A DNA stretch of 64,000 nucleotides, from positions 1 to 64,000 of the forward strand of contig JAAKEZ010000007.1 in the NCBI GenBank assembly GCA_018475625.1, written 5' to 3'. How positions within the stretch are numbered: the first letter of the stretch is position 1; the number at the start of each line of letters is the position of its first letter. Made by a program: the position numbers and the translations under genes. The notes below the pieces were generated by a model. The model did not search any database. It was not told the origin of the DNA and saw only the letters and a list, made by a program, of their open reading frames with translations. The DNA comes from Candidatus Bathyarchaeota archaeon A05DMB-2. Its GTDB lineage: Archaea; Thermoproteota; Bathyarchaeia; Bathyarchaeales; Bathycorpusculaceae. Of this stretch, positions 18,118-36,330 are shown one piece after another.

Positions 18118-18133
18118 ACTGGTGCGGTTTTTG

Positions 18134-18294
18134 TCTATAGCCCCTTATTTAAAGGAGCCCTGTACAGCGCTTTTGCTCTGCAGGGCAGTTCCCTTCCCTC
18201 TCCTGATTTTCAACATGCCTTTGACGGTTTTCTGCGCCAATAGCGACCCCCCCTCTATAGATTTCTGCAACGATTGACTACTGAACTCCAAATA
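18134..18294. repeat. Repeated element, copy A (candidate structured RNA)
   Basis: Two parts are shared with copy B: a left block (18134-18159, TCTATAG then CCCCTTATTTAAAGGAGCC), followed by a hairpin with CCCTG/CAGGG arms and a TTTT loop; and the core (18211-18294) with CAACATG, GCGCCAATA, CCCTCTATAG, TTTCTGCAACGA and CTCCAAATA. After TTTCTGCAACGA, copy A has a stem TTGACT/AGTCAA that differs in sequence from the stem at the same place in copy B. Copy C shares the core on the other strand. Transcription direction is unknown. Confidence 0.7.
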
Positions 18295-18366
18295 TGCCTT
18301 CAGTCAAAAATATCCCAAGGACGAGTTATCGTCAATTAAGGATTCGAGTGCGCGCGAGTTATTTGC

Positions 18367-18456
18367 TCACTGGTAACTGATTCTGTTCTTGCCGCATTCC
18401 GAGCACTCATAAGCGCAAGTGGTCATATGCCTGCAACTATCGTGCTTGCTTTCCAT
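18367..18456 (-). CDS. Cys-rich micro-ORF, 29 residues, zinc-finger-like
   Basis: An ATG at 18456 gives a peptide with Cys8, His10, Cys14, Cys18 and Cys21 (AYECSECGKN), a pattern that could bind one zinc. A TATA-like stretch (CTTAAAATA on the minus strand) is about 12-20 bases upstream. It lies between the repeated element and the P-type ATPase gene. Real expression is uncertain. Confidence 0.4.
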   Translation of the reverse strand: MESKHDSCRHMTTCAYECSECGKNRISYQ

Positions 18457-18605
18457 CAAAAGTATTTTAAGAGCGAGAATTCTCGTTTGTTCTGATGGCG
18501 CTGATTTCTCGATATCACGGCGCGATTAGGATGGATGACTAGACGCAAGACTCTGACGGCAGCATTAGTGGGCAAGAAAAACGGGTAAGTTGTGCGCCTT
18601 CTGCG

Positions 18606-21587
18606 TTGGGCGTGGATGAAATTCTCAGTCTACCCGTTGACGAACTGCTTGCTCGCTTGGGCTCATCCCTCCGCGGTCTCGGTTCTGAAGATGCGGCGAA
18701 CCGTCTGGAAGTCTATGGTCGCAATGAGCTTGCAAGAAGAAAGAAGCGAGCGGGCATAGTCGAGTTTCTCATGCATTTCAGAAGCCCGCTGGTTATTATA
18801 TTGATAATCGCCGCCTTGATTTCTGGTCTCCTCCAAGAAATACCCAACATGATAATCATTCTTTCCATTGTGTTCATAAGCGTAATCCTTGATTATTACC
18901 AGGAATCCAAAGCCAGCCGCGCCGCGGAATTGCTGAAGGAAAAGGTAACAACAACCGCAACCGTGCTCAGGGATGGCGTACGAAGAGAGGTGAAGCTTCC
19001 TGAAGTCGTTCCAGGAGACATCATTTACCTTTCCGCGGGAGACATAGCACCTGCAGACGCGAGGGTGATAAACGCAAAAGACTTGTTCATAAATCAGTCT
19101 GCGTTAACGGGTGAGTCTTTTCCTGTTGAAAAAACTTCTACGCCTGTGGTTGGGCAGGCTACGTCGTTTACTCACTGGAGTAATTACCTTTTCATGGGCA
19201 CCTCCGTGGTGAGTGGCACCGCGACAGCCGTTGTGGTTAAGACGGGCGGCTCAACCGAGTACGGGAAAATCGCGAAGAGACTCGTTGGCGCTGTTCCAGA
19301 AACCGAGTTTGAACGCGGAATCAAAAGCTTCGGTTTTCTCATAATGCAAGTTACTATGCTCCTGGTTTTGTTCGTCTTTTTCGTAAACGCTCTGCTTGGT
19401 CGAGGCGTGCTGGATTCGCTTCTGTTCTCCGTGGCTCTCGCTGTTGGCTTAACCCCTGAACTGCTGCCCATGATTATCACGGTGAACCTTTCCAAAGGCG
19501 CCATCGCAATGTCCAAGAAAGGCGTCATCGTGAAACGATTATCCTCAATCGAGAACTTTGGCAGCATGAATGTCCTCTGCACCGACAAGACGGGGACTCT
19601 CACGGAGAATCGAATAACGCTGGTGCTGCACATAGATGCGGAGGGAAACGAGAGCGACAAGATACTCCTGTACTCTTTCCTGAACAGCTACTTCCAGACA
19701 GGGTTGAAGAGTCCGCTTGATGATGCTATTCTGGCACACAAGGAACTTGATATCAGCGGCTTCCAGAAGATTGACGAAGTTCCCTTTGACTTTGTGCGCC
19801 GCCGCGTTTCTGTGGTTGTTGAGCACAAGAGGCAGCGATTCTTTATCGCCAAAGGCGCCCCGGAAGAAATCTTAAAAGTATGCTCTTACACCGAACTTTC
19901 AGGTATACCATCTGACCTCACTGAGGCATTGCGGAAACAAATTGAACAGAAGTTCTATGACTTAAGCAGCGACGGCTTTAGGGTGTTAGGTGTCGCCTAC
20001 AAGAAACTCCGAAAGGAAAAAGCCGTTTACTCTGTCAACGACGAAACCGACATGGTTTTCCTCGGGTTCGTAGCGTTCTTGGACCCGCCAAAAGAAACCG
20101 CTAAGCAGTCGCTGCAGCTGCTAAGCAACGCTGGGATAGAGTTGAAAGTTCTCACGGGCGACAACGAACTGGTCACCAGAAAAACCTGTGAGCAGTTGGG
20201 CTTCGAGATAAAAGGCGTTGCTTTGGGCAGCGAAATTTCGCAGATGTCAGATGAAGGTCTCGCCCGAATCGTTGAGGAAGCCAACGTTTTTGCACGTGTC
20301 ACGCCCGCGCAGAAAGACCGCATAATTAACCTGTTGAAGGCTAATGGTCACGTCGTGGGCTTCATGGGCGACGGCATAAACGATGCACCTTCGCTGAGAA
20401 CTTCCGACGTGGGCGTGTCGGTTGACAACGCGGTGGATGTTGCAAAAGAATCCGCTGACATCATTTTGCTGAAGAATGATTTGACAGTGCTTGGCGAAGG
20501 AGTTTTAGAGGGGAGGAAGACGTTCGGCAACACCATGAAGTACATAATGATGGGCATCAGCTCAAACTTCGGCAACATGTTCAGCGTCGCCGGCGCCTCC
20601 CTAATCTTGCCTTTGCTTGGTTTCGATTTTCTGCCTATGCTTCCTATTCAGATTCTTCTCAACAACCTGCTTTATGACTTGTCTCAGTCCACCATAACCA
20701 CAGACAACGTTGACCCTGAGTATGTTGAGAAGCCTAAGCGGTGGGACATCGGTTTCATAAAGAACTTCATGATTTCTCTGGGACCAGTAAGCTCCATCTT
20801 CGACTTCTTGACTTTCTTCATCATGCTGTTTGTTTTTCTGCCAATGCTGCCAGCGTCCGCGCCGCCAGCCCAGAAAGAGCACTTGTTCCAGACCGCTTGG
20901 TTCATTGAGTCTCTGGTCACCCAGACCCTCGTGATCTTCGTGATTCGCACGCGGCACTCGCCGTTCTGGAAGAGCAAACCCGGCAGACTCCTAGTTATAA
21001 GTAGTATAAGCATTGTTGCTTTCGCGTTGCTGGTGCCATACACATTCTTGGGAGCCAGATACTTCCTTTTTGTTCAGCCTCCGCCGGCGTTTCTCGCTGT
21101 TTTGGCGGTGCTGGTTTGTGCTTACCTTCTTTTTGCTGAAGTGGTTAAAAACTGGTTCTACGCACGGCACGCGTATCGTTTAGAGCAGGTTTTGATTCCA
21201 AAGAGACGTGCAGCCCTTTACCTCAGCAGGACAACGCGGCTTGTGCAGGACATCGTGGCAGTTGTGTGCCTCCGCGTGGAAGACGAAATCTCCGTGAAGT
21301 CCCTAACTGACGACTTGGCGAGAAGCATGGATTACCCGTTCACGCCAGACGAGGTGGTGCAGAACCTTCACCATCTGAGGCGCACGGGACTCGTCAGCAT
21401 AGACTGGCACAAGAGAATCATAAAGCGTGAAAAGTCTATGAAAGAGTATGTGGCGGCACGCGTGGTGACTAATGAGATGTGGCCGGCGATAATGCAGGAC
21501 TGGCGGAGAATCAGTGAAGCCTTAGAAGCTGAATACGGCAAAACAAACCCCGAGTACCACGAACTGCTCTACCCAAAACAAAAATAA
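18606..21587 (+). CDS. mgtA: MgtA-type P-type ATPase with C-terminal extension
   Basis: A cation-translocating P-type ATPase, 993 residues, most like the magnesium-importing MgtA/MgtB group. Visible motifs: TGES in the actuator domain (about 178), the phosphorylated Asp327 in CTDKTGTLT, GDGINDAP in the hinge, and the MgtA-type membrane segment LPIQILLNNLLYDLSQS. About ten membrane helices are present. The start is TTG 18606 or GTG 18612; upstream the frame is open only to a TAG near 18540. After the last membrane helices it continues for about 100 cytoplasmic residues (VKSLTDDLARSMDYPFTPDE, then VVQNLHHLRRTGLVSID) that resemble a winged helix and are not part of the usual ATPase. Function is confident, the ion is inferred. 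Confidence 0.88.
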   Translation: MGVDEILSLPVDELLARLGSSLRGLGSEDAANRLEVYGRNELARRKKRAGIVEFLMHFRSPLVIILIIAALISGLLQEIPNMIIILSIVFISVILDYYQESKASRAAELLKEKVTTTATVLRDGVRREVKLPEVVPGDIIYLSAGDIAPADARVINAKDLFINQSALTGESFPVEKTSTPVVGQATSFTHWSNYLFMGTSVVSGTATAVVVKTGGSTEYGKIAKRLVGAVPETEFERGIKSFGFLIMQVTMLLVLFVFFVNALLGRGVLDSLLFSVALAVGLTPELLPMIITVNLSKGAIAMSKKGVIVKRLSSIENFGSMNVLCTDKTGTLTENRITLVLHIDAEGNESDKILLYSFLNSYFQTGLKSPLDDAILAHKELDISGFQKIDEVPFDFVRRRVSVVVEHKRQRFFIAKGAPEEILKVCSYTELSGIPSDLTEALRKQIEQKFYDLSSDGFRVLGVAYKKLRKEKAVYSVNDETDMVFLGFVAFLDPPKETAKQSLQLLSNAGIELKVLTGDNELVTRKTCEQLGFEIKGVALGSEISQMSDEGLARIVEEANVFARVTPAQKDRIINLLKANGHVVGFMGDGINDAPSLRTSDVGVSVDNAVDVAKESADIILLKNDLTVLGEGVLEGRKTFGNTMKYIMMGISSNFGNMFSVAGASLILPLLGFDFLPMLPIQILLNNLLYDLSQSTITTDNVDPEYVEKPKRWDIGFIKNFMISLGPVSSIFDFLTFFIMLFVFLPMLPASAPPAQKEHLFQTAWFIESLVTQTLVIFVIRTRHSPFWKSKPGRLLVISSISIVAFALLVPYTFLGARYFLFVQPPPAFLAVLAVLVCAYLLFAEVVKNWFYARHAYRLEQVLIPKRRAALYLSRTTRLVQDIVAVVCLRVEDEISVKSLTDDLARSMDYPFTPDEVVQNLHHLRRTGLVSIDWHKRIIKREKSMKEYVAARVVTNEMWPAIMQDWRRISEALEAEYGKTNPEYHELLYPKQK

Positions 21588-21708
21588 TGAGTTATGCAGT
21601 CCCTTTTTGAACCGCTGTCTGTTTCACTTTATTAAAGGGCGAAGGAGCCTCTGGGTTCTGAAGCACAAAACAATCAGTTAAATCTATTTATGCGTGGTTG
21701 ATAAACGG

Positions 21709-21918
21709 CTAGAAACGGTTTTCCTTCTCTTTTTCCTTCATCTGCTTCAACATTTGCCCAGCGATGCTTGTCAGGAAGATTATGCTGAAAACCAGCACTC
21801 CAATTCCTATCTTGTACGCCAGTTGCATGTCGGAGTAGAGCACTGCGAAGACAAGCACCACCATGAGCGCAATGGTTAAGCCGTCTTGCACGCTGTTAGC
21901 GCCCAATTTAAAACTCAT
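21709..21918 (-). CDS. Small two-helix membrane protein
   Basis: A 69-residue protein with two membrane helices (about 12-28, GLTIALMVVLVFAVLYS, and 33-54, AYKIGIGVLVFSIIFL) and a Lys/Glu-rich cytoplasmic tail. It is convergent to the P-type ATPase gene. No known family recognised. Confidence 0.65.
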   Translation of the reverse strand: MSFKLGANSVQDGLTIALMVVLVFAVLYSDMQLAYKIGIGVLVFSIIFLTSIAGQMLKQMKEKEKENRF

Positions 21919-21985
21919 TCTTTTAACGTCGCCTTTTTAAGGCGTCTTTCTCATAGTCACTTATTAATTTTCTCCCGAATTAACT

Positions 21986-22207
21986 CTATTCGCGACCAAT
22001 ATACATCACTTTCGCCGCTTCCCTCTTCATGTACTCCTTAAGCTTCTCGGGCGGAATGCACTCCGTAAGTTCAGGGCAATACTTGTTCGCGTGAAAATCA
22101 AGAAGTCCCGAAAGCGGCTCAATAATCTCCTTATTCACCGCAAACCGCCTTTCGTCACCAGAGTCTTCCGAAAGAACTAGCGCAATATGCTTCAGCCTAT
22201 CCAACAC
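21986..22207 (-). CDS. Hypothetical protein coupled to threonine aldolase
   Basis: A 73-residue soluble helical protein with two Cys (YCPELTECIPPEKLKEYM). It overlaps the end of the threonine aldolase gene by 11 bases, so the two are co-transcribed. No family recognised. Confidence 0.65.
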   Translation of the reverse strand: MLDRLKHIALVLSEDSGDERRFAVNKEIIEPLSGLLDFHANKYCPELTECIPPEKLKEYMKREAAKVMYIGRE

Positions 22208-23252
22208 GCAGTTCGCTCGACACTTTCTCGAGTGCCGCTATGGTTTTTTCAATGTGGTTTTTCTCAATCCCTCTATGCGTAACCATTCTAACCACGTTCT
22301 TGCTATTCGTCAAAGCTAGAATGCCCTCCTTCTCCAGTTTCGACAGGAACAAATCATCCTCAATTCTCAAACAGCTGATATCAAAACACACCATGTTTGT
22401 CTGCACACGACTCATGTCTACAGTAACCCCATCTATCTTGGCAATTCCCTCCGCCAAACGCTTGGCATTTTCGTGGTCTTCTTTTAGCCTGTCTATCATC
22501 TTCTCCAAGGCAACGATGCCTGGCGCAGCAATTATGCCTGCTTGTCGCATTCCGCCACCTAAAACCTTCCTAATTTTCCGAGCTTTTTCAATGAATTCTT
22601 GAGTGCCAACAACTAACGAGCCGATTGGACAGCTTAAACTCTTAGAAAGACAAAACATCAAATTATCAACATGCCTGGTGAACTCCTTAACGTCAACGTT
22701 TAGCGCGACTGCAGCGTTGAAAATTCTTGCGCCGTCCATGTAGAGCTTCAAACCATGTGCCACTGCAACCTCGCTTATTGCGCGTATTTGTTCAGGCGTT
22801 ATGATGGTTCCGCCATGCCTGTTGTGCGTGTTCTCGATGCAGACGAGCGCAGGTTCTGGAAAATGGATGTTCTTAGGTCGTATGGCTGCTTCCACATCTT
22901 TCGGGTCAAGTGCACCCATACTGCTTTTCAATGGCCAAGGAAGCAACCCGGCAATCATCGAGATTCCGCCCACTTCATACCAATAAATATGCGATTCAGC
23001 TTCAAGAATCACGAGTTCTCCGCGTTTTGTGTTGCTCATCAAAGAGACCAAATTGGCTTGGGTTCCGCTTGTAACGAGAAGCGCTGCCTCCTTGCCCATT
23101 TTCTCAGCCGCCATTTCTTCAAGCCTGTTAACCGTTGGGTCTTCCCCGAAAACGTCATCTCCCAGTTCTGCATGCCGAATAGCCTCCAGCATTTCCTCAG
23201 TGGGCAAGGTGACAGTGTCGCTTCTCAAATCAATAATTTCTTTAGACGGCAT
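22197..23252 (-). CDS. ltaE: L-threonine aldolase
   Basis: A 351-residue PLP enzyme of fold type I that splits threonine (and allo-threonine) into glycine and acetaldehyde. It opens with IDLRSDTVTLPTEEML, the family hallmark, has GDDVFGEDPTVNRLEE at about 32-47, the PLP-holding Asp in YMDGARIFNA, and the Schiff-base lysine in CLSKSLSCPIGS (about residue 207). Full length compared with bacterial homologues. It is divergent from the GAF protein gene and overlapped at its 3' end by a small unknown gene. High confidence. Confidence 0.93.
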   Translation of the reverse strand: MPSKEIIDLRSDTVTLPTEEMLEAIRHAELGDDVFGEDPTVNRLEEMAAEKMGKEAALLVTSGTQANLVSLMSNTKRGELVILEAESHIYWYEVGGISMIAGLLPWPLKSSMGALDPKDVEAAIRPKNIHFPEPALVCIENTHNRHGGTIITPEQIRAISEVAVAHGLKLYMDGARIFNAAVALNVDVKEFTRHVDNLMFCLSKSLSCPIGSLVVGTQEFIEKARKIRKVLGGGMRQAGIIAAPGIVALEKMIDRLKEDHENAKRLAEGIAKIDGVTVDMSRVQTNMVCFDISCLRIEDDLFLSKLEKEGILALTNSKNVVRMVTHRGIEKNHIEKTIAALEKVSSELRVG

Positions 23253-23358
23253 TTCACTTCACTTTCCACAGGTGCCTTATTACAATTGACTCTATTTGAA
23301 TAAATAATATTTAATAACGCTGCAGAACGAAAACGGAAAGAGAACAAGGTGCAGGGTA

Positions 23359-23823
23359 ATGGATAAAAACGACCTGTTCAAAGTCCTGACAAAACGTGCA
23401 AACGAAATCCTAGAAGGCAGACTAAATCGAAACGAAAAGCTGAAGGCCATCTGCAAACTGCTCAGAGACAACGTTCCATACTATAATTTTGTCAGCTTTT
23501 ACATTGTGGATAAGAAGCGAAAAGAACTCGTTCTCGGTCCTTTTGAAGGAGAGCCAACTGAACATGTCAGAATACCTTTCGGAGTAGGAATATGCGGTCA
23601 AGCCGCAAAGCTAAGAAAGACCTTCATCGTGCAGGATGTTACAGAAGAAACTAACTATCTTTCATGCAGCGCAAACGTAAAAGCGGAAATCGTCATCCCC
23701 ATTTTCCACAAAAATGAAGTCGTCGGAGAACTTGACATCGACTCTCACACGCTTTCGCCGTTCACATCAGAAGATACAGAATTCCTTGAAAAAATAGCTG
23801 AACAAGCGGCAGAACTCCTCTAA
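23359..23823 (+). CDS. GAF-domain protein, free methionine-R-sulfoxide reductase-like
   Basis: A single GAF domain of 154 residues. The stretch VRIPFGVGICGQAAKLRKTF, then YLSCSANVKAEIVIPIF, matches free methionine-(R)-sulfoxide reductases: Cys79 and Cys103 correspond by spacing to Cys94 and Cys118 of the E. coli enzyme, the latter being the catalytic one. The third cysteine of that enzyme (Cys84, just before VRIPF) is His69 here. So it may be a reductase with a different resolving cysteine or a ligand-binding GAF protein. Start ATG is preceded by AAGGTGCAGGG. Confidence 0.8.
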   Translation: MDKNDLFKVLTKRANEILEGRLNRNEKLKAICKLLRDNVPYYNFVSFYIVDKKRKELVLGPFEGEPTEHVRIPFGVGICGQAAKLRKTFIVQDVTEETNYLSCSANVKAEIVIPIFHKNEVVGELDIDSHTLSPFTSEDTEFLEKIAEQAAELL

Positions 23824-23855
23824 AGTGGGATAAGCTGAGTTTTGATGAAATCTGT

Positions 23856-24755
23856 TTACGAGACTAACAGGATGGCGATTACTATTAAAACTGCCCCTAC
23901 TCCTGAAACCGCTGTAAAGCCTTCCCCGAGGAAAACGGTGGAAATTATTACGGCAGCTATTATTTCAGTTAAGAGAACCACCGCGGAAGTTACCGGCGTG
24001 ATATTCTTCAGTCCTTTCAACCACAGGTAATAAGGCACCACCCAGCACAGAATCGCAGTGTAGAAGATGGCAACCCAAGCGGTCCACGGAAAAGAAGCAT
24101 ACGTCGCCGCAGAAAACGGCGCAGTTGGCAGCAGCGGCAACATTGTAAAAAGCAAAAGCCACGTCATTGACTGAACCATTTTCCCGCCTTCTCGAACCAA
24201 CGGTTTATTGTAGACTATGAAGACAGCCCACAGGACTCCAGCGCAGATTACAAGCAAGTATCCCATCAGCTCCCCGGAGCCGAACCCTGTGAAACTCAAG
24301 TTTGTTGTCATCAATAACACTCCGAGAAGGCTTACCATGACGCCCACAACTTTTTTGCCGCCCAAACGCTCCTTTAAGGCTACTGGACTCAACAGCGCGA
24401 CCCACACGGCGCTAAGATTAACAAACAATGATGATTCTGACGCTGACGCGTAAACCATGCCCGCGTACTGCATCAGGTATGCCACGCCGTTGATTACGCC
24501 CAAAAACAGGAGCAAGCGCTTCTTGCTAAAGTTGAAACCAAAATTCTTCGTTATCACCAGCACAAAAAGCATCACAAGCGAAGCAACCAGAAAACGCAGG
24601 AAAACGAAGGTGTAAGCATCCATGTATTGCAAACCGATTTTTATGGCTGGAAAGGATGTGCCCCACAGAGAACCCGCTAAAACTGTCAACAATACAGCTC
24701 TCTTTTTGTCATCCGCCAAGTAACGCGTCCGCAAGGACCATTCCTTTCTTTCCAA
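23856..24755 (-). CDS. DMT-family (EamA) transporter
   Basis: A 299-residue membrane protein with ten hydrophobic helices arranged as two EamA repeats: the first has LAGSLWGTSFPAIKIGLQYM near the N-terminus, the second has CAGVLWAVFIVYNKPLV near the middle. PVTSAVVLLTEIIAAVIIS is typical of the last repeat. Such proteins export amino acids or other metabolites; the substrate cannot be told from sequence. Convergent to the GAF gene. Confidence 0.88.
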   Translation of the reverse strand: MERKEWSLRTRYLADDKKRAVLLTVLAGSLWGTSFPAIKIGLQYMDAYTFVFLRFLVASLVMLFVLVITKNFGFNFSKKRLLLFLGVINGVAYLMQYAGMVYASASESSLFVNLSAVWVALLSPVALKERLGGKKVVGVMVSLLGVLLMTTNLSFTGFGSGELMGYLLVICAGVLWAVFIVYNKPLVREGGKMVQSMTWLLLFTMLPLLPTAPFSAATYASFPWTAWVAIFYTAILCWVVPYYLWLKGLKNITPVTSAVVLLTEIIAAVIISTVFLGEGFTAVSGVGAVLIVIAILLVS

Positions 24756-24763
24756 GTCATAAA

Positions 24764-24982
24764 TTAGAACCTTCTTAAGGCTTTTGCCGCATTTCTGTGG
24801 ACCATCACAACATAGGCAAAACTGGAGTTACTCAAGGCTTCTTCTAAAGTTTTAAAAAGTGCGTTTGGCATGGAACCATCACAAACGCGGACTTCCAAGA
24901 TAGTGAGAAGCGTTTCAGTTTCAATGTGAAAGCACTTGATAATGAGTGGTGGGATTTCTGGATGGTTAGCACCATGACAGAA
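24764..24982 (-). CDS. Doubtful small ORF between MarC and EamA genes
   Basis: A frame of about 72 residues with a protein-like second half (ETLLTILEVRVCDGSMPNAL, then FKTLEEALSNSSFAYVVM) but no good start; the extended frame to 25039 overlaps the end of the MarC gene. It may be a small real gene with an unusual start or a decayed one. Low confidence. Confidence 0.3.
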   Translation of the reverse strand, partial: FCHGANHPEIPPLIIKCFHIETETLLTILEVRVCDGSMPNALFKTLEEALSNSSFAYVVMVHRNAAKALRRF

Positions 24983-24989
24983 GAGGCTG

Positions 24990-25610
24990 TTATCCGATTG
25001 GGATGTGAGAGACAGCGGTAATGATTCCAGATATGACAAATTGTATTGCTATCGCAAGCACAATAATTGCCATTAGTGCCGTCACTACATGTATTCCATC
25101 TTTGCCGAAAAGCTTAACGAGCCTATGAGCATGAGTCATACCCCCGTAAGATAACAGAACTCCAATGGCTATTCCCACGAAGACGAAAACTGTCTCAATC
25201 AAACTGCTTGCTTGCGAAAATAACAGAATAACTGTCGTTATAGTGCCCGGACCCGCAGTGAGAGGAAATGTTAATGGAATAATTGAAATGTCCTCATGTT
25301 CGTCAGATGAAAAGCTGGTTTTTTCTGAAAGCATTTTCAACGCGATAGTTACTAGGAGAATGCCGCCTGCTATCTGGAACGCATACACTTCAAGGTTGAA
25401 TACCTGAAAAAGAAGTGTACCTGTTAAAGCGAAAAAAGCCAGAATTATAAAACCTAATTTCGCCGATTTAGCAGCCATTTTGCGGTGTTTTTCATTAATT
25501 TGCCCCTTTGTCAGAGTTAGGAATATCGCAGTTGTGCTAAGAGGATTCATAATGGCTACTATGGATGAAATTGCCGTTGTCGCGAATTCAAGTGTTGCCA
25601 ATATTGGCAC
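24990..25610 (-). CDS. MarC-family membrane protein
   Basis: A 206-residue protein with six membrane helices. The MarC signature is visible: an N-terminal helix with AIMNPLSTTAIFLTLTKG, then IAGGILLVTIALKML, and PLTFPLTAGPGTITTVILL in the fourth helix. The family is widespread and its transport role is unsettled. Start ATG at 25610. Confidence 0.88.
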   Translation of the reverse strand: MPILATLEFATTAISSIVAIMNPLSTTAIFLTLTKGQINEKHRKMAAKSAKLGFIILAFFALTGTLLFQVFNLEVYAFQIAGGILLVTIALKMLSEKTSFSSDEHEDISIIPLTFPLTAGPGTITTVILLFSQASSLIETVFVFVGIAIGVLLSYGGMTHAHRLVKLFGKDGIHVVTALMAIIVLAIAIQFVISGIITAVSHIPIG

Positions 25611-25922
25611 CTATCTGTTTAGGGATTCAATCGAATATAAAGATTAAACGCAAAAGCATTAACATTACAGCGATGCCCTCGTTTCCGAATTGACACAAAA
25701 TCTGCCGTTTTCCTGAAAAATGTTCGCGACCTCACATAATGAATTATCAGTTTATAAAAAGTTGCAATTGGGGCATCCGTATCAGCACTTGCCTTCCACT
25801 TTCGTTGGTTGAAGTAAAATCTAATATAGCTATATCTTTTTGTAGCTGGAATAAGCTCAGTTAAATGCGCTGCGAGATTTGTTTGGATATTTCAGGTAAG
25901 ACTTATTTGTCCTTGCTAGCAG
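25611..25922. other. Divergent intergenic region
   Basis: About 310 bases without a gene. The palindrome ATATAGCTATAT at 25824-25835 is a likely TATA element for the acetyltransferase gene. Nothing else stands out. Confidence 0.4.
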
Positions 25923-25934
25923 TTGTTATTAGCT

Positions 25935-26441
25935 GTGACATCATTGGTGATTCGGGCGGCAACAGTCAAAGATATTTCATCCATAGTCAAGATTAGGTTG
26001 GCTGCGCTTACTGAGGAGGAAATTCGCGGGTTTTCCGCCCCAGAGTCCGCCACCTACTTATCAATTGCAGAACTGCGAAAAGCGTGGAGCAGAAGAAACA
26101 GGTTGACAGACGATTTTGAAGTGCTTGTGGCTGAGGCTGAAGGAAAGCTGGTTGGCTTCATTGTTTTCAAGATGGAACGCGATTATGGTTACATAGACAA
26201 CATCGTTGTTTCCAAGAAGGAACAAGGAAAGGGAATAGGTAGCGCACTTGTCGCGTATGTAGAAGGCATTGCAAAATCTAAAGGTTGCTACTTGATGAAG
26301 ACGGACACGACAGAGAACGCTAACGGTGTTCCCTGGAAAGCGTATAGTTTCTGGACCAGAATGGGATACGAAGATTCTGGAAAGCGGTTGCCCACCAATT
26401 ATGACTTCACGGAGATTCCATTAATTAAAAGACTAAAATGA
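25935..26441 (+). CDS. GNAT-family N-acetyltransferase
   Basis: About 168 residues with the GNAT core: strand VLVAEAEGKLVGFIVFKME, beta-bulge IDNIVVSKKEQGKGIGSALV containing the acetyl-CoA loop (Q-x-x-G-I-G), and a C-terminal FWTRMGYEDSGK. Several in-frame non-ATG starts are possible (TTG 25923, GTG 25935, GTG 25947); none has a strong ribosome binding site. The acetyl acceptor is unknown. Confidence 0.85.
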   Translation: MTSLVIRAATVKDISSIVKIRLAALTEEEIRGFSAPESATYLSIAELRKAWSRRNRLTDDFEVLVAEAEGKLVGFIVFKMERDYGYIDNIVVSKKEQGKGIGSALVAYVEGIAKSKGCYLMKTDTTENANGVPWKAYSFWTRMGYEDSGKRLPTNYDFTEIPLIKRLK

Positions 26442-26596
26442 GTATCTAATCTGTGTAATGATGCTGTAAAGAGTAGGTGCCTTTCAAAGTCTTGCCAGCT
26501 TCTTTTGGGTTTGGGCTTAAAATTCCTAAAATAGGTTTCCTTAATCTTTTTTATATTCCATTTTTTGTGTGCGAGTTAAGTATGATTATGAATAAG

Positions 26597-26617
26597 AGCC
26601 TCTGACAAACAGAGGCT
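26597..26617. other. Perfect hairpin between convergent genes
   Basis: AGCCTCTG (26597-26604) and CAGAGGCT (26610-26617) form an 8-base stem with a five-base loop, between the ends of the GNAT and MFS genes. A pyrimidine-rich, U-run-like stretch precedes rather than follows it. It may be a terminator or processing signal. Confidence 0.45.
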
Positions 26618-26665
26618 GCGAGCCCTTGCTTTTGCAAAAAAGAGAATTCCCATCTCAATCCCCGT

Positions 26666-27898
26666 TTAGAAGACTATACCTTTGCGGTGTTGGGTTTCTT
26701 CCTCAGGCATTTTCACCTTTCTAAAATAATGCCAAAACAGCATTATTGAGATTAAGTATAATAGGCTCGCAATTAGAAAAGGTTCAGCCAATAGTCCAAT
26801 GCCCATGAGCCATGCTCCAATAAATGTGCTCAAAGCGTTAGGCAATCTCCATAACGCGCCACTTATGCCGGAAACAGCACCCCGCTCATCCTCAGCTACT
26901 AACCCCATTATCATTGACTGCGATAGTGGGCTTGCCATATTCATGAGTAATGCTCTTATGCTGTAAACAAAGCCTGCTAAAGCGTAATTAGAGGAAAAAG
27001 GTACAGAAAACATAAACAGTGTCGATGCTGCTTGTGTTATTACTATTGCTTTTATTAAGCCAAACTTTTTGGCAACCCACGGCGCTACAAGTGTTGCAAA
27101 ACCAACCAGTATGCTCGATACTGCCAAGATGGAGGCACTTATTTTATCCGAAATCCCATACTGCAAATTAAACCAAAGTGTCATAAGAGGAACCACCATG
27201 CCAGCACCAAAAGCAAGTATGGCACCAGTTAAAACATATTTCAGCAAGATGGCTTTTGATTTTCTCGGAAAAAATTTTTTTTCGCCTGCTTTTGGCTTCT
27301 TCAGTTTTTTTGACTCACTCACTTTGAGCATTATAAGCGTAGAAACTGCGCTCAAAATGGCTATTAAGACATAGAGCAGTATGTGGCTGTCTTTGTCAGT
27401 AAACCCTGCGAACTCAAAAAATATTACGAAAGGCACTGCAAAACTGCCCAAGCCAAAAGCGAGACCTTGGACAAAGCCGTACAAAGAAAAGAGGCTGGTT
27501 CTCTTTTCGTTATCTACTTTATCCGCAAGTAACGCGCTGCTTGATGCAGTGATAGCGGCTTCGGAGATTCCTTCAAAAATGGCAGCGATTATAAGTAACA
27601 CTGGGTCTGTCGTCAAAGCTAAAACTGCGAGTATTATGCTTGCTAGCAAGTTACCCACAATGAGTAGTTTCTTTCTTCCATAAACGTCCGCGGCCATTCC
27701 AAGGAAAATGCTGGCAACAAAGGTTGAGATGCCCATGGCGGATATTACTATTCCCGTGAAATCAGCCGGCACTTCTTGGATAATGGTTAGGAAATAGGAT
27801 ATGTCAGTAAATATTAATCCGTAAGCAACTGCTGGCATTATGGATGCGTAGATTAGATATTTTGCCTCTTTGGGCATACCCGCGTAGTTGCTGAACAT
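26666..27898 (-). CDS. MFS transporter
   Basis: A major facilitator family permease with twelve predicted helices. The loop between helices 2 and 3 carries GMAADVYGRKKLLIVGNLLA, the MFS signature A-like motif (G-x-x-x-D-x-x-G-R-K/R), and a charged central loop (SESKKLKKPKAGEKKFFPRK) separates the halves. I start at ATG 27898; the frame continues upstream to 28021 without a better ribosome site. Drug or metabolite export is typical for relatives; substrate unknown. Confidence 0.85.
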   Translation of the reverse strand: MFSNYAGMPKEAKYLIYASIMPAVAYGLIFTDISYFLTIIQEVPADFTGIVISAMGISTFVASIFLGMAADVYGRKKLLIVGNLLASIILAVLALTTDPVLLIIAAIFEGISEAAITASSSALLADKVDNEKRTSLFSLYGFVQGLAFGLGSFAVPFVIFFEFAGFTDKDSHILLYVLIAILSAVSTLIMLKVSESKKLKKPKAGEKKFFPRKSKAILLKYVLTGAILAFGAGMVVPLMTLWFNLQYGISDKISASILAVSSILVGFATLVAPWVAKKFGLIKAIVITQAASTLFMFSVPFSSNYALAGFVYSIRALLMNMASPLSQSMIMGLVAEDERGAVSGISGALWRLPNALSTFIGAWLMGIGLLAEPFLIASLLYLISIMLFWHYFRKVKMPEEETQHRKGIVF

Positions 27899-28064
27899 TT
27901 TTCCGAGGTGCATATTAGTCCAAACGATTAGAGTTGCTTGCATAATTAGTTTTTCATAACTAAAAGAGAAATTAAGACTATAAAGTTCTGCAGACACAAG
28001 AATTGACTTAAGAAAATACAAAAAGATGACTATAAGACTGCCAAAAGAAAATCAGCAAGAAACT

Positions 28065-28271
28065 TCAGTCACTTATGCCCCACTTAACTAGGTTCCATGC
28101 TCTTTCATGAAAATAATACAAAATCATTGTTATCACGTTATAAATGCCTCCAATAGCTACCGCAATGTCCCATCTGCCTGTTAGAAGAAATGAGGTGACT
28201 ATGCTGACTACGATGCAGATAACGCGCCACATAATTGATTTGACTATTGATCTTTTTCTTGTTTCTTTCAT
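28065..28271 (-). CDS. DUF2061 small membrane protein
   Basis: About 68 residues starting at ATG 28271, about 25 bases downstream of a TATA-like CTTAATATG, so probably leaderless (an upstream ATG at 28289 is possible). The sequence RSIVKSIMWRVICIVVSIVT, then GGIYNVITMILYYFHERAWN, matches the DUF2061 family: two membrane helices with a conserved HERxWN end. Function unknown. Confidence 0.8.
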   Translation of the reverse strand: MKETRKRSIVKSIMWRVICIVVSIVTSFLLTGRWDIAVAIGGIYNVITMILYYFHERAWNLVKWGISD

Positions 28272-28289
28272 GATTTTTGAGTTAATCAT

Positions 28290-28492
28290 ATTTGCATATT
28301 AAGTTTCCGAGATGTGGTTTTGTATCTGAAAGAAGAAAACACGTAGCTTGGGAAACAAACGGCAGTTTTTCGTTTTTACTTGCGCCTCCTGAAAAGAGGC
28401 GAGATAGACACAAGGAAAGCCTTTTTTCCAGCTACTGTTAATCTTCTTACAGGACTGGAATAGCCTTATCTAAAATGTGAAGCTCGAATGTT
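28290..28492. other. Divergent intergenic region with GC hairpin
   Basis: CGCCTC (28383-28388) and GAGGCG (28396-28401) form a perfect 6-base stem with a seven-base loop. No gene seen. It may belong to a 5' leader or be a small RNA. Confidence 0.35.
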
Positions 28493-28834
28493 ATGATTAC
28501 CAAGAAACCTGTGTTAGAGTTGCTTGCTCGGAGTCTGCTTTATTCCTTAATAGTTGTTTTAATAGATTTTGTACTAATCTTCTCTATTCAAGGAGAACTA
28601 ACTCAAATAACCGCTTTTCTTTCACTCATCATGTTATTAGAAGGTGGAATAGGTCTCGCTGTGGGCGGTGCAGTTGCATCCTATTCTCCTTTAAGTGCCA
28701 AAATAAGCGAAGTTCTCTTTCATTCTAAACCTTGGGATGCTAAGCGCCAAAAAGAAGCAGAGAAGCAAGCACGAACATGGATCATGACTGGAGGAATTCT
28801 GGTTTTTGCTGCTCTTCTCGTATCTGCTGTGTGA
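28493..28834 (+). CDS. Hypothetical three-helix membrane protein
   Basis: A 113-residue protein with three membrane helices (about 10-30, 38-62 with Gly-rich GGIGLAVGGAVASY, and 95-112), and a cytoplasmic basic loop (KPWDAKRQKEAEKQARTWI). It lies just upstream of the presenilin-like gene, 73 bases away, and may share a transcript. Not recognised. Confidence 0.65.
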   Translation: MITKKPVLELLARSLLYSLIVVLIDFVLIFSIQGELTQITAFLSLIMLLEGGIGLAVGGAVASYSPLSAKISEVLFHSKPWDAKRQKEAEKQARTWIMTGGILVFAALLVSAV

Positions 28835-28907
28835 GTTGTAGCAGTTGGTGATTACCTTAGAAAAGTTAATCATCTCCTTCAATAAGTTAGGGTTAGGATC
28901 AGGTTGT

Positions 28908-29777
28908 ATGGAACGAACCAGTTCTTCCGAAAAGCATTCCTCAGCCAAAATAAATAAAATATATTTTTTGCTTCCAATTTTTTTGGCAATTCTAATTTCC
29001 TTGATTTATTCCCAGTCTGTACTCCTTGCTCAGCCTTACAGCGAAGGCTCAACATTTATATTTGAAGGATATAGCGCAGTATTCATTGCGTTAAACATTT
29101 TTGCAATCACTATCGTATCCGCTATAAGTTTATTCATTTTTCTTCGCATACTAAAAAAGAGGAGGGAAGTTGCATTACGAATTTTGGTTGCTGCATTCAT
29201 AATAGGTGGAATGCTTTCAACGCTGCTCTTCGGAAAGCACTTGTTCATTTTATTGAATTTAGAGTCTCCTCTTTTTCTCTTAGTTGTAGCGTTTGTGGCT
29301 TATGTTGGAACATATTTTGCGTATCTAGCCTTTGTTGAGGCTCTTTCTGATAGAGCGAGAAACATGCTCTTTGTGGTATGCAGTGGAACTCTCGGAGCTT
29401 TTCTAGGCGTATTACTGCCAACATTAGCTGTCGTTGGAATTGCCCTTTTTCTTTCAGGCGCCGACCTAATTCTAATACATAGAAGCACTGTGGAAAAAAT
29501 TGTTGGAGAAGCCGAATATGAACGGCTGATTATGAAGCTTTCTTTTTCAAACAAGGGGTGGGCAATTGGGATAGGTGATCTTACTTGTTATTCAATGGTT
29601 GTATCCAGCTCTTCGTTGAGTTATGGGGTTTTTGTAGGCGGCTTGTCTTTGCTCTTGATTTTAGTTGGTTCCTTTTTATCATTGGCGTTGGCTGTGAGAT
29701 TGGTGCGAGTTCCAGGTCTTCCTATTGCGGTAATGCTGGGTGTGTTGCCTTCGTTGGTAATGTTGCTTTTCTTTTAG
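28908..29777 (+). CDS. Presenilin-like intramembrane aspartyl protease (A22/DUF1119 type)
   Basis: A membrane protein of about 290 residues with eight to nine hydrophobic helices. The GxGD catalytic motif is present as WAIGIGDLTCYSMVV near residue 220, and an earlier membrane Asp lies in FLSGADLILIHRS, at the spacing expected for the partner aspartate of presenilin and signal-peptide-peptidase families. The last helix has PGLPIAVMLGVLPSL in place of the usual PAL, so the third motif is altered. ATG 28908 is my start; a TTG at 28845 would add 21 residues. It would cleave membrane helices; substrates unknown. Confidence 0.75.
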   Translation: MERTSSSEKHSSAKINKIYFLLPIFLAILISLIYSQSVLLAQPYSEGSTFIFEGYSAVFIALNIFAITIVSAISLFIFLRILKKRREVALRILVAAFIIGGMLSTLLFGKHLFILLNLESPLFLLVVAFVAYVGTYFAYLAFVEALSDRARNMLFVVCSGTLGAFLGVLLPTLAVVGIALFLSGADLILIHRSTVEKIVGEAEYERLIMKLSFSNKGWAIGIGDLTCYSMVVSSSSLSYGVFVGGLSLLLILVGSFLSLALAVRLVRVPGLPIAVMLGVLPSLVMLLFF

Positions 29778-29861
29778 GTAACTCTACCTTTTGAAATTTA
29801 GGCCGATTAAGTATGTGCAGACTTCCAGCACCTTAAAAAAAGAAAAAAAAGAGGGTTTGTT
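29778..29861. terminator. Convergent gene end with A/T runs
   Basis: The gap between the protease and the substrate-binding protein gene contains AAAAAAAGAAAAAAAAG, giving T-runs for the minus-strand gene and A-runs for the plus-strand one. Archaeal termination often occurs at T-runs, so this probably ends the binding-protein transcript. Confidence 0.45.
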
Positions 29862-31739
29862 TTAGGTTTTTCGTTTTCTAATGAAGTATACTGCGCCCAC
29901 GGCAACTACGACCACAACTATTGCTACTGCTATGTAGAGGCCGTAGTCTTGTAGGAATCCTTTAGAGGGCGGTGGAACTCCTGTGTCATATCCAGCGGCT
30001 GCCAGCAACGACTTTGCTAATTCTACATCGTACGAGTAGGGCTGAAGACTTGTGTCGAATCCATCAGTCAGTGTGCAGATTGGGGTTGTAATTCCAGGGG
30101 TGCCGTATCCGTTAAGTATTGTATTTATGATGTTCTCTCTTGGAATTAGGTGGCTAATTGCCTGTCGAACATAGCGGGCTGCTTCAGCGGCTCTTGATGG
30201 GTCTTGTTTGCCTAGCGGCGTGTCAACACCTGTTCCGAAGATTGGGTGTTTCATGTTGAATCCTAGTTCTTGCACGCCGAAAGCGTCATAGGCTACCCAA
30301 GCGCCCCAAGGTTCTTTGATGCTGTCCAGTTTGGCTTCCAAGTGGTATTGTGAATCAAGCACGTCTACTTCGCCTGTTTTAAGGGCGGTGATTGCTGCGT
30401 CAGAGCCTTCTATTTTGACCACAAGATATTGCTCGATTCCGAAGAGTCCTGCGTCCAATAGTGTCTGAGCGTTCCAGTAGTCATCATTTCTGGTAAGCGC
30501 GTTTGTGAACGTTGTGGAGTCGTATCCTGCATACCAGTATGGTCCGGTTCCTATTGGTCCATAGAATGTTTGCCCGTTAGCGGTGTAACTGCCTTCGCCT
30601 GTGTTAAACGGGTGGCTTCTCCACTCACTGTAAGGCACATTCTCTAGGACGTGCTTTGGAATCATGTATCCGTATCCTTCAGCCAAGATGCTGGAATCAA
30701 AGTATGCGTAGGGGGCAGGTAGGTGGAATTTCACGGTATAATCGTCTACTATTTCAATGTTATCTGGAGAACCAATGATTTCTTTCACAAAGGCTCCAGC
30801 ATTCGAGGCTAAATCCTCTGCCATTGCTGCTTCATAGGTGAACTTTACGTCTGCGGCGGTGAATTCAACGCCGTCATGCCACTTGACGCCTTGTCTCAAT
30901 TTGACGGTCCAAGTTTTCTGGTCGTCTGCAACTTCCCAGCTTATAGCTAGTTCAGGAATTACTTTTAGAGTTTCAAGATTTTCTCTTCTGGTCAGGCTGT
31001 CGAAAACTGCGCCATATACCGTCAAGTCATAGTATGAGGTTGAAAGCCACGGATTCAATCCTTCTTCTGGGGCTGGTCCTGTCTGAGCAAGCACAATTGA
31101 GGTTTGGGTAGTTGATGGGTTTAGTTTCCATTCTTCAACTCCAGGCCAAACGGGATAATGCAGAATCTCAAATGGGTGTCCCTCAAGGGCTGTTGGATCA
31201 TAGGCGACTACTTCTCGCGTGTATAAGATGGTTGCTGAAGGCTGTTCGTCATAGGCTAGCTTTTGCCATTCCTTCACGTATTGGAGGCGTTGGGTGTCGT
31301 CCACAGTTTCCTTGATTAGTTTACAAAGTCTGTCGTTCTCTTCATTTACCCAGTTGTAGTAGTTTTGTCCTGGCGGAACTTGGCTACTATGATATAAGCC
31401 ATATGGGTCTGGGTCTATACCTAAAGCGTAGCCGATGAACAGCATATCAAAGCCGCCTTCATCAAATGTCTTGCCCACTATGTCTTGAGGTGGATCAAGT
31501 GCTCTATCATAGATGGTTCCCCAATCTTGTATAACTCTAACAGCATCGATTCCAACCGAGTCCAAGTTTGATTCCACAATTTCAGCCCAAGCTTGCCTAG
31601 ATGGATTTGTTGATGGAACCGTTAAAGTAACTTTAAACAGCGTCGTTTGACCGCGTGCCAAAAAGGCTGCTGGCAACAAGAATGCGCTTAGGAGTAGTAG
31701 CAAACCTAGTATTACTGCTTTGTATTTATTTTGTAACAA
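29862..31739 (-). CDS. Peptide ABC transporter substrate-binding protein, circularly permuted
   Basis: A 625-residue extracellular solute-binding protein of family 5 (SBP_bac_5, DppA/OppA type) with a signal peptide (about 1-31) and a C-terminal membrane anchor (about 598-620, YGLYIAVAIVVVVVAVGAVY) followed by RKRKT. The domain order is unusual. Residues about 35-190 (LTVPSTNPSRQAWAEIVESN, FIGYALGIDPDPYGLYHSS) read like the C-terminal lobe end of normal family members, while the canonical N-terminal start (WEVADDQKTWTVKLRQGVKW) begins only near residue 270. The protein ends after AKSLLAAAGYDTG, exactly where the C-lobe would normally follow. It is divergent from the permease operon. Confidence 0.88.
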   Translation of the reverse strand: MLQNKYKAVILGLLLLLSAFLLPAAFLARGQTTLFKVTLTVPSTNPSRQAWAEIVESNLDSVGIDAVRVIQDWGTIYDRALDPPQDIVGKTFDEGGFDMLFIGYALGIDPDPYGLYHSSQVPPGQNYYNWVNEENDRLCKLIKETVDDTQRLQYVKEWQKLAYDEQPSATILYTREVVAYDPTALEGHPFEILHYPVWPGVEEWKLNPSTTQTSIVLAQTGPAPEEGLNPWLSTSYYDLTVYGAVFDSLTRRENLETLKVIPELAISWEVADDQKTWTVKLRQGVKWHDGVEFTAADVKFTYEAAMAEDLASNAGAFVKEIIGSPDNIEIVDDYTVKFHLPAPYAYFDSSILAEGYGYMIPKHVLENVPYSEWRSHPFNTGEGSYTANGQTFYGPIGTGPYWYAGYDSTTFTNALTRNDDYWNAQTLLDAGLFGIEQYLVVKIEGSDAAITALKTGEVDVLDSQYHLEAKLDSIKEPWGAWVAYDAFGVQELGFNMKHPIFGTGVDTPLGKQDPSRAAEAARYVRQAISHLIPRENIINTILNGYGTPGITTPICTLTDGFDTSLQPYSYDVELAKSLLAAAGYDTGVPPPSKGFLQDYGLYIAVAIVVVVVAVGAVYFIRKRKT

Positions 31740-31937
31740 TGCTCATCTCTCCCAGCCCCTATTTTTGCATGTTTTTGCCTTATAACACTTGCGCCACCGC
31801 GAGTTATTGTAAAAAAATAACGTATCCATGTGTTTGAACAATGTCCTTTTGGCATGTTGCTTGAAGAATATTATTCAGTTCCTCAGTCTTGTTTTAAGAA
31901 TACTTATATATGTGGAGTGAAAAATTTGTTCGGAATT

Positions 31938-31955
31938 GTGACAAAGTTTGTCAAT
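31938..31955. promoter_or_regulatory. Dyad overlapping start of the dipeptide permease operon
   Basis: GACAAA (31940-31945) and TTTGTC (31947-31952) form a perfect dyad around one base, extending partly outward. It lies about 30 bases after a TATA box (TTATATATG, about 31903-31911) and just before the ATG at 31954, so near the transcription start. A repressor site is plausible. Confidence 0.45.
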
Positions 31956-32928
31956 GCTTAGATATGTAATCCGCAGAATCATCTATTTGATACCGCTGTT
32001 TTTTGGAATTTTGATCATAGTTTTTGTTGCATCACGCATTGCTGGTAACCCTGTACAACTTATGACTGTTCAAAATCCTCACATAACAGCAGAAGCCAGG
32101 CAACGTTTAACTGAATACTATGGTCTTGACAAGCCTTTGTATCACCAGTTCTTTATTTATCTAGCGGAACTGTTTCAAGGTGACCTTGGAAATTCCTATG
32201 CCCTAAGGGGAGGCATAGCAGTCACCACATTGATTGGCGATTATGCTTGGTTAACTTTTGAGCTTCAACTTGCCGCCCTTTTCCTTTCACTTCTAATTGC
32301 AATCCCTGTAGGGATAATATCAGCAAAAAAACAGTACTCAAAGCTGGACGTGACGGTAACCACAACCTCTCTTCTTGGCACATGCATCCCTGTTTTCTAC
32401 ATGGGAATAATTGCAATCATAATTTTCGCCTATTTCCTAGGCTGGTTTCCTGCAGGTGGAGCCCACTCAATTTTGCCAGAGAGATATCCGTTCGGCAGCT
32501 ACGTATTGGATGAATTGTGGCATATGGCTTTGCCCACGGCAGTTCTGACCTTTGCAACTCTAGCGCCAGTGGTGCTTCTAGTTAGATCAAGCATGCTGGA
32601 AGTGTTAAGGCAAGACTACATATTAGCAGCGAGAGCAAGCGGCTTGAGCGAGCGAAGCGTGATTTACAAACATGCCTTGAGAAACGCCCTTATTCCTGTT
32701 GTAACTTACGTAGGATTATATTTTGGTGCCATGCTTGCTGGCGCTCCTGTAACGGAAACGGTTTTCAATTGGCCTGGTGTTGGTCGCCTTTTCGTTGAGG
32801 CCACAACTAAACTTGACTTTCCAGTAATAATGGGCATTACTGTCTTCATCACCATAATGACTCTTATTGCTAACTTGATAACCGACATAGCTTATGGATA
32901 CATAGACCCGAGAATTAGATTTGAATAG
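31954..32928 (+). CDS. dppB: Peptide ABC transporter permease B
   Basis: A 324-residue inner-membrane permease of the DppB/OppB type with six helices. The N-terminus YVIRRIIYLIPLFFGILIIV is typical, and the cytoplasmic EAA loop reads ARASGLSERSVIYKHALRNA (about residues 225-244). I start at ATG 31954; TTG 31948 also opens the frame. It is the first gene of the operon and pairs with permease C. Confidence 0.92.
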   Translation: MLRYVIRRIIYLIPLFFGILIIVFVASRIAGNPVQLMTVQNPHITAEARQRLTEYYGLDKPLYHQFFIYLAELFQGDLGNSYALRGGIAVTTLIGDYAWLTFELQLAALFLSLLIAIPVGIISAKKQYSKLDVTVTTTSLLGTCIPVFYMGIIAIIIFAYFLGWFPAGGAHSILPERYPFGSYVLDELWHMALPTAVLTFATLAPVVLLVRSSMLEVLRQDYILAARASGLSERSVIYKHALRNALIPVVTYVGLYFGAMLAGAPVTETVFNWPGVGRLFVEATTKLDFPVIMGITVFITIMTLIANLITDIAYGYIDPRIRFE

Positions 32929-32951
32929 AGAAAAACTTGGAGAAGGACTAT

Positions 32952-33884
32952 ATGAAAAAAGAAAAGTCCACTAAACTTGAGCTGCAGTATCAAAATGAAA
33001 AAAGCCGACCGAAAGGCGTAAGTCAATGGAACATTGCTTGGCGAAGATTTAAGAAAAATAAAGCAGCCCTCGTAGGCGCATTAATTATAGGTTTTGTGAT
33101 GTTCCTAGCAGCTTTTGATTCACTGATAGCGCCATATCCTCCAAACGCCACACCTGGATTTTACGTTGGAGAAGCCAGAGTCCCTCCATCTTTGAAATAC
33201 TTGTTTGGCACGGATAAACTGGGTCACGATGTCTTTAGCCAAGTAGTGTATGGTGCTAGATCAGCGCTTTATGTTGGTTTTGGCGCGGCAGCAATCGCCA
33301 TGTCGTTAGCTGTATTAGTAGGTCTTGTCTCTGGTTATTATGGTGGACTTGTTGATAATGTTTTAATGAGAATAACAGAAATCTTTTTGGTTATTCCCTT
33401 CCTTTTAATCTTGCTTGTTTTTCTAAAAGTAATTACTGCTGTGGCGCCTGCAAGTATTGGAGGTCTGTCAATAGTAACACTTATGATAGGTGTGTTTTCG
33501 TGGGCGTCAAATGCAAGAATCATTCGCGGAGAAGTACTACGAGTGAAAGAAAGTGAATTTATTGAGGCCTCGAAGGCATTAGGAGCAAGCAAAAGAAGAA
33601 TTATATTCAGGCATATTTTTCCCAATGTTTTGCACATCATCATAGTTCTAACTACACTCATGATAGCAACCGCAATTTTGGTAGAGGCGGCCGTGAGCTT
33701 TCTAGGATTTGGCGATCCAGCGGCTATAACTTGGGGTCACCAACTGCAATTAGCCAACGAAGCTGTGAAAGAAGCGTGGTGGGAAGGGGTCTTTCCAGGA
33801 TTATTCATCACTCTATTGGTTCTCGGATTTAATCTGCTCGGAAATGGATTGCGAGACGCTCTAGACCCGCGTCTTAGAGAATAA
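32952..33884 (+). CDS. dppC: Peptide ABC transporter permease C
   Basis: About 310 residues, with six helices and the DppC-type features: an N-terminal SQWNIAWRRFKKNKAALVGA, the region LFGTDKLGHDVFSQVVYGAR, and the EAA loop EASKALGASKRRIIFRHIFP. ATG 32952 follows GGAGAAGGA, better placed than TTG 32937. Partner of permease B. Confidence 0.92.
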   Translation: MKKEKSTKLELQYQNEKSRPKGVSQWNIAWRRFKKNKAALVGALIIGFVMFLAAFDSLIAPYPPNATPGFYVGEARVPPSLKYLFGTDKLGHDVFSQVVYGARSALYVGFGAAAIAMSLAVLVGLVSGYYGGLVDNVLMRITEIFLVIPFLLILLVFLKVITAVAPASIGGLSIVTLMIGVFSWASNARIIRGEVLRVKESEFIEASKALGASKRRIIFRHIFPNVLHIIIVLTTLMIATAILVEAAVSFLGFGDPAAITWGHQLQLANEAVKEAWWEGVFPGLFITLLVLGFNLLGNGLRDALDPRLRE

Positions 33885-33898
33885 AAAAGAAGGAACGA

Positions 33899-34903: not shown

Positions 34904-34908
34904 ACGCG

Positions 34909-35904: not shown

Positions 35905-36330
35905 GCAACATCGCTTTTTCACTAATTTCTGAGCGAATGCACTGCAAGAACAGAGAAGATCGTAAGAAAATTCCAGAAAAAACAAACATGGGGACGTATC
36001 CGACTGATTCAGTGATGATTCCTGCATATAACAGAGAAATAAACTCGGCAAGCCTCATAGGTACGTGGAGCAAGCCTATGTCAACAGAGACTGCATTCCT
36101 ATTTTTAGTTGCTTTTGCAATTATGGATTCGAAAAACCCCATCCCGAGTCCTTCAGCAACAGCTAACGCCAAAAATAAGCCAAGAAAGTAAAGGTTTGAG
36201 TAAGCTAAGAGCGCTGATACAAAAAGGGCGATACTGCTCTGCAAGATGATTCTGGGTTCCTAGTGAAAATCTTAAGGCTCCAAAAATAATTATTGCGGCT
36301 ATAACATTGAAGAGCATGTAAGCGATCCAT
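35905..36330 (-). pseudogene. Broken MFS transporter fragment
   Basis: On the minus strand, membrane-protein sequence occurs in two frames: [20 protein letters not shown] (upstream, 36250-36330) and then SNLYFLGLFLALAVAEGLGM to FVFSGIFLRSSLFL (down to about 35950). An in-frame stop and a shift near 36240 separate them. The pieces read as the last helices of an MFS permease (FFESIIAKATKNRNAVSVDI looks like an inter-helix loop). It lies between the intact and the broken ATPase F genes, so it was inserted, or the neighbours rearranged. Confidence 0.65.

Follow-up and report, generated by a model that had tools for sequence, protein, structure and literature searches.

A dispersed intergenic repeat family linked to chromosome rearrangement between sister species of Bathyarchaeia

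The genome of Candidatus Bathyarchaeota archaeon A05DMB-2 carries a modular, intergenic and non-coding element of ~180 bp in many copies, and comparison with a sister species showed these copies to be points at which, on the aligned sequences, left and right flanks have been re-paired. The repeat family is real, and it is previously undescribed in the literature that we searched, where no earlier description of it was found. We consider it probable that the elements form a recombinogenic MITE/REP-like repeat family, in which recombination between copies would re-pair chromosome blocks and gene conversion would swap modules among copies. The link between the repeat family and chromosome rearrangement is strong and testable, and the rearrangement-seam property is not visible from a single window, such as the 64,000-nucleotide stretch of DNA (the window) with which this analysis is concerned.

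The window contains three core copies, A, B and C, lying where an earlier note on this DNA had placed them and including the words that it had listed as shared. The left block that the note had described as common to copies A and B was likewise recovered in both by a left-block profile (Table 1). The exact word GCGC(C/G)AATA occurs at three places in the window, all of which are these copies. The similarity is beyond chance, because copy B alone, used as a query, retrieved dozens more copies from the window's own genome (G000; 2.48 Mb in 110 contigs), with E values down to 4e-31. The description of the element as "three-copy" is, however, an artefact of window size: R1, a profile built from 31 copies and with matches counted at E<=0.1, had 86 matches in the whole of the 2.48 Mb genome. 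R1 was built as a sequence-only profile, not as a covariance model, because RNAalifold returned no pairs.

Table 1. Copies of the repeat, their parts and the segments between them in the window (R1, sequence-only profile; G001, sister species).
Feature	Position	Strand	Basis or remark
Copy A leader/left block	18133..18200	+	Left-block profile match, 61.2 bits, 8 bp upstream of core; contains TCTATAGCCCC, TATA-like TTATTTAAA, GGAGCC, variable hairpin and pyrimidine-rich CCCTTCCCTCTCCTG
Copy A core	18208-18297	+	R1 match, 76.4 bits
Copy A half 1 (TTTCAACATG...CCCTCTATAG)	18208..18261	+	R1 match
Copy A half 2 (CCCTCTATAG-ATTTCTGCA...CTCCAAATA)	18251..18297	+	R1 match
Segment between copies A and B	18220..41826		Two aligned pieces, same order on G001 C2:112.6-134.1 kb, copies at both ends
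Copy B leader/left block	41858..41921	+	Left-block profile match, 44.7 bits
Copy B extra degenerate half-2 unit (TTTCTGCATTGATTGGCTATTAGGTGGCAAACAGG)	41913..41963	+	R1 model positions 42-91, E 9e-5; nhmmer match
Copy B core	41974-42060	+	R1 match, 88 bits
Copy B half 1	41974..42025	+	R1 match
Copy B half 2; seam of blocks on different sister contigs	42016..42060	+	Left block to 41826, right from 42057
Block between copies B and C	42057..62735		Inverted on G001 C30:138.9-121.8 kb
CCCTTAATTAAAGG, leader-like palindrome, far side of copy C	62621..62634	-	Sequence
Copy C core	62669-62758	-	R1 match, 65.3 bits
Copy C half 2; seam of blocks on different sister contigs	62669..62715	-	G001 C30 vs C36 blocks
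Copy C half 1	62706..62758	-	R1 match

On the sense strand, the element is ordered as a leader, a variable hairpin with a pyrimidine tract, half 1, the CCCCTCTATAG joint and half 2. The leader consists of GTCTATAGCCCC and, after it, the TATA-like palindrome TTATTTAAA; half 1 reads TTTCAACATGGTTTGGC...GCGCCAATAGCGACC; and half 2 is GTTTCTGCAACGAACCACTAATAGGCGCCAAATAG, with a 3' end that is often GGCTGGTTCTGC (also written GTTTCTGCA...CTAATAGGCGCCAAATAG). Copies with a single half overlap in the joint, at R1 model positions ~41 to ~53, and two half-1 arms are fused head to head at CTCTATAGAG at 2 loci (G000 C8:68499/68548 and C37:35156/35202). Half 2 is the most widespread part across genera, and tandem half-2 units occur in genomes G031 and G082. 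Core lengths are mainly 90 to 95 and change in single-base steps, and any one reading frame is open in at most 40 of the 95 copies, in keeping with the earlier remark that insertions and deletions break any common frame. Variants of the TTATTTAAA box are A/T-only (TTATATAA, TTTATATA and TGTATATA), and in the leaders (e.g., window 18145-18153 and 41869-41877) the box varies mostly among A/T forms. Such forms are typical of archaeal TATA boxes, so that transcription into the element may start from a promoter carried by the copies. At core columns 16-29, hairpin tips appear to run either way (GGCGTTTTCAG-like or GGCGTCTGAAAACGCC), which gives the impression of a tip inverted from copy to copy. 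A second short motif, TTTCTTGACTAA / TCAAGAAACCTTGACTAAG, stands several times beside some copies (L013, L020 and L030) and could represent a further repeat or an operator-like array. Separately, a 14-mer census of G000 contigs C3, C8, C20 and C37 (920 kb) revealed a set of words at exactly 38 occurrences (TTTCCTTGCATC / GTAAAGGGAATTGAAAG), and these words resemble a CRISPR-array repeat.

Copies are spaced at roughly one per 25-30 kb throughout the genome. The sister species (G001), with 87% mean identity to G000 over aligned DNA, has 85 R1 matches, and at least one match was found in 44 of the 91 genomes of the same GTDB family. The search for further copies, in this genome and in other Bathyarchaeia, that the earlier note had set as a check was thus productive. 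Distribution within the family is patchy: several genomes have at least ~47 matches, and others of the same genus have 0-3. Fuller R1 counts gave 96 for G031 (3 contigs), 100 for G082 and 43 for G062 (1 contig), and copy-rich genomes of the family carry, approximately, 50-100 copies each. Among the matches listed for 151 sampled genomes of the class Bathyarchaeia, all fell in one GTDB family; because R1 was derived from G000, very divergent relatives may be missed by it. An exact 19-base core pattern was also compared with species genomes, and 79 of the 80 loci listed were in Bathyarchaeota records. A near-identical copy was seen on contig C42 of G068 (locus L114), a bin of another genus, and its flank corresponds to the flank of G000 copy L014; this contig is probably a contaminant from the window's species.

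The evidence for rearrangement comes from a synteny comparison of two MAGs, in which 920 kb of G000 (37%) was aligned with 1.18 Mb of G001 (~56%). Both flanks were found together in G001 for only 1 of the 22 G000 copies that had one or both flanks alignable, whereas this was the case for 107 of the 172 other intergenic regions. Size-matched Fisher tests of flanks apart versus together gave an odds ratio of 69 (p = 3e-8) for intergenic regions of at least 100 bp and of 45 (p = 1e-6) for those of at least 200 bp. A copy was present no more than 500 bp from 31 of the 61 testable synteny-block ends in one or both genomes, and from 21 of them in both; for random positions, the corresponding value was 3.6-4.5%. 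The orthologous G001 flank had a same-orientation copy at 22 of 23 testable breakpoints. Linkage between flank and copy was kept, and it was the pairing of left and right flanks that had changed: in three-way alignments, the upstream flank led to one G001 locus and the downstream flank to another, and the switch occurred inside the element. Copies are thus situated at synteny breakpoints in both genomes, as recombination seams would be. In another genus, one site examined in G062 against G059 and G060 was collinear despite carrying elements; therefore, not every copy recombines. Relatives found with a 3-kb G031 query had <=74% identity and were too distant for breakpoint comparison.

The window itself reproduces this pattern, with contig switches at copies B and C and copy A at a block edge. 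Copy A and its right flank aligned to G001 C2:112579, where a same-orientation copy is present too, and its left flank had no match in the ~56% of G001 compared. The two pieces of the segment that follows correspond to C2 112.6-119.4 kb (G000 18220-24791) and C2 128.6-134.1 kb (G000 36328-41826). The block inverted on C30 has a half-2 match at 138897-138945 of that contig, and a homologue of the CCCTTAATTAAAGG sequence was found downstream of the sister copy at C30:121744. Beyond copy C, G000 62796-67822 continues on G001 C36 from 5.8 kb, and copies are found at both sister ends of the copy C junction, on C30 and C36.

Given that both genomes are metagenome assemblies and that the breakpoints coincide with repeats, assemblers might have mis-joined contigs at these repeats, an explanation to which we attach very little probability. 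Between copies of the same genome, the median length of the longest exact match is 23.5 bp (G000) or 37 bp (G001), whereas the contigs of the record that matches G001 have k147 in their names; many copies are, furthermore, traversed by contigs of 100-370 kb. Misassembly is unlikely for these reasons. G031 and G062, which are assembled in 3 contigs and 1 contig, respectively, carry the high-copy family as well.

Sequence also turns over inside the element. When G001 copies were ranked by interior similarity, on a scale where 0.5 would be random, the mean rank of the copy at the orthologous flank was 0.34-0.37 (upstream partners) and 0.50 (downstream partners); copy interiors thus have little or no locus orthology between G000 and G001. 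The nearest relatives of copies were in the same genome more often than expected (permutation p <= 0.004). These comparisons showed interiors to be exchanged between loci and homogenised within the genome. An attempt to fix the crossover by identity to upstream and downstream partners was dropped: interiors carry too little locus signal for it to be placed to a base. At one orthologous gene boundary, half 1 is present in G060 and G059, and half 2 stands in its place in G062; some sites therefore appear to be old, with modules exchanged in place. By eye, the flank beside half 1 at G001 C36:169459 resembles this same gene-boundary locus. Two genera therefore appear to have an element half at one shared gene boundary (G001 C36:169459; loci L335, L336 and L182 of G059/G060/G062), where CTATAG or CTACG seems, again by eye, to provide the gene upstream with its stop codon. 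For three sites of G001, G000 is syntenic and without a core, and leader or CTATAG sequence is still there.

As to mechanism, recombination between copies, as deduced from the two MAGs, would invert or relocate the intervening blocks. The crossovers would lie within the element, chiefly near the CCCCTCTATAG joint or downstream of it, and modules would be swapped between copies by gene conversion, without crossover. The likeliest route would be recombination of short imperfect repeats by host machinery or by one of many tyrosine recombinases, and a dedicated enzyme for the repeat site is possible. The CTATAG joint is palindromic, half copies stop at it and head-to-head copies are fused at it, all of which hints that exchange favours this point. 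In its original spread, the repeat was probably a non-autonomous, MITE/REP-like element. Of the two readings in the earlier note, the small non-autonomous element comes closer, as the element is a high-copy, patchy, dispersed and non-coding repeat; "remnant" is nevertheless wrong, because there are ~85 copies that are internally homogenised within each genome.

The breakpoints could instead have been made by a MITE-like transposon, moved in trans by some transposase, through its own insertion or excision and without exchange between copies. High copy number with patchy distribution, homogenisation within each genome and a few sites at which the sister genome is syntenic but lacks the core are all consistent with such an element, but transposition alone does not predict a same-orientation copy at both re-paired flanks (22 of 23), and the apparent empty sites still have leader or CTATAG sequence. 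Terminal repeats and target duplication were not clearly visible: the element ends have a weak CTATAG/CTATTTGG resemblance, and the few apparent empty sites are without clean duplication. Neither a transposase nor a clean insertion site was found for the element, and we judge transposition alone to be improbable. A RAYT/IS200 transposase was rejected as the mobiliser because the gene is absent from key copy-rich genomes; nothing matching PF01797 (Y1/RAYT) was found in G000, G001, G015, G029, G031, G059, G062, G074 and G082. An autonomous parent transposon between half copies was also sought, and only host-type genes lay there at two G000 loci.

A dedicated site-specific system acting on the CCCCTCTATAG/half-2 core, in effect a genome-wide shufflon that reshuffles chromosomal blocks, would accommodate several other features: nearly all testable copies are seams despite the short exact matches between them, half copies end and head-to-head copies join at the palindromic CTATAG, conservation across genera is greatest in half 2, and G000 has 18 tyrosine-recombinase matches. 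Against such a system, no recombinase gene was found that separates copy-rich from copy-poor genomes, the crossover position along the element is not fixed to a base, and some sites are collinear. PF00589 proteins are present in 83 of the 91 family genomes, copy-rich and copy-poor alike, and a tyrosine recombinase tracking copy number was rejected, as it does not discriminate. We hold this system to be doubtful. If it did exist, the ~85 palindromic sites, each having CTATAG as its crossover core, and a dedicated recombinase would turn the chromosome into movable blocks, which might be shuffled in Bathyarchaeia on evolutionary or even cellular time scales.

Recombination among repeats as the preferred reading also has to be set against a structured RNA family, which the earlier note had offered as one of two readings and which would be a non-coding RNA made from the TATA-like leader and working either as a UTR element or in trans. 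The TATA-like leader with its AT-only variants (e.g., TTATATAA and TTTATATA) and hairpin-like palindromes in many copies would fit such an RNA. However, RNAalifold found no consensus pairs in 31 copies or in 95 copies. At the two visible palindromes, TTGGCG...CGCCAA and CTATT.GG..CC.AATAG, standard pairing was 82.5% versus 81.9% in shuffles, and the covariation score was 0.047 versus 0.046. The covariation check that had been proposed thus returned, with 95 copies, a signal equal to that of shuffled columns. The strongest covarying columns in these copies are non-Watson-Crick neighbours in the hairpin loop, and they are loop haplotypes, not base pairs. The stems had been said to change in both arms, but double-sided changes were no commoner than in shuffles; the changes between copies are loop and spacer haplotypes, apparently with hairpin tips inverted, and do not concern paired positions. 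Rfam had nothing at the gathering score over the window and nothing at E<=1 on seven loci. The four arrangements of copies relative to neighbouring genes have 23, 21, 18 and 14 members, with 6 copies overlapping predicted ORFs; since all four occur and there is no orientation preference, a gene-linked regulatory element was rejected as well. The structured-RNA reading is not supported, because consensus pairs are absent, covariation is at shuffle level and the ~85 copies have no orientation preference relative to genes. Copy interiors are, moreover, exchanged between loci, and we regard such an RNA as highly improbable.

By class, the element is nearest to MITEs. Like MITEs such as the Correia element and those covered by the review PMC10969869, it is short, non-coding and intergenic, with tens to more than 100 copies and an internal promoter-like sequence, and at ~180 bp and ~85 dispersed copies it has the size and multiplicity of that class. 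Prokaryotic MITEs have been called hotspots for homologous recombination (review PMC10969869). Unlike MITEs, the element showed neither clear terminal inverted repeats nor target duplication, and no parent transposon was found at the two G000 loci examined; it is modular with half copies, its interiors are exchanged while flanks keep the copy, and its link to synteny seams is near-saturating. REP/BIME sequences with RAYT (Y1 transposase) resemble it as intergenic, palindromic, high-copy and non-coding units, but Y1 transposases are absent from key copy-rich genomes and the units of the element are much longer and compound. Integron attC sites and shufflons are also palindromic sites at which DNA segments re-pair; those systems, however, are local arrays with short cassettes and a dedicated recombinase, whereas copies of the element are spread genome-wide. 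In Thermococcales, the integrase Int-pTN3 recombines segments as short as 104 bp and drives inversion (PMC5495485). That archaeal group likewise has close genomes that are hard to align because of frequent rearrangement, but sequence specificity there is low and no dedicated ~180-bp dispersed repeat is invoked (PMC5495485). Integrase-driven inversion in Thermococcales is the nearest archaeal precedent.

The repeat marks about half of the synteny-block ends between the sister species and would explain the scrambling of gene order in the family. Bathyarchaeia are abundant, almost entirely uncultured archaea that are known mostly from MAGs. The copies give natural borders for gene blocks of the GTDB family and predict where MAG assemblies and gene-order comparisons disagree. 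The repeat is also a concrete site at which to seek the enzyme that rearranges Bathyarchaeial chromosomes.
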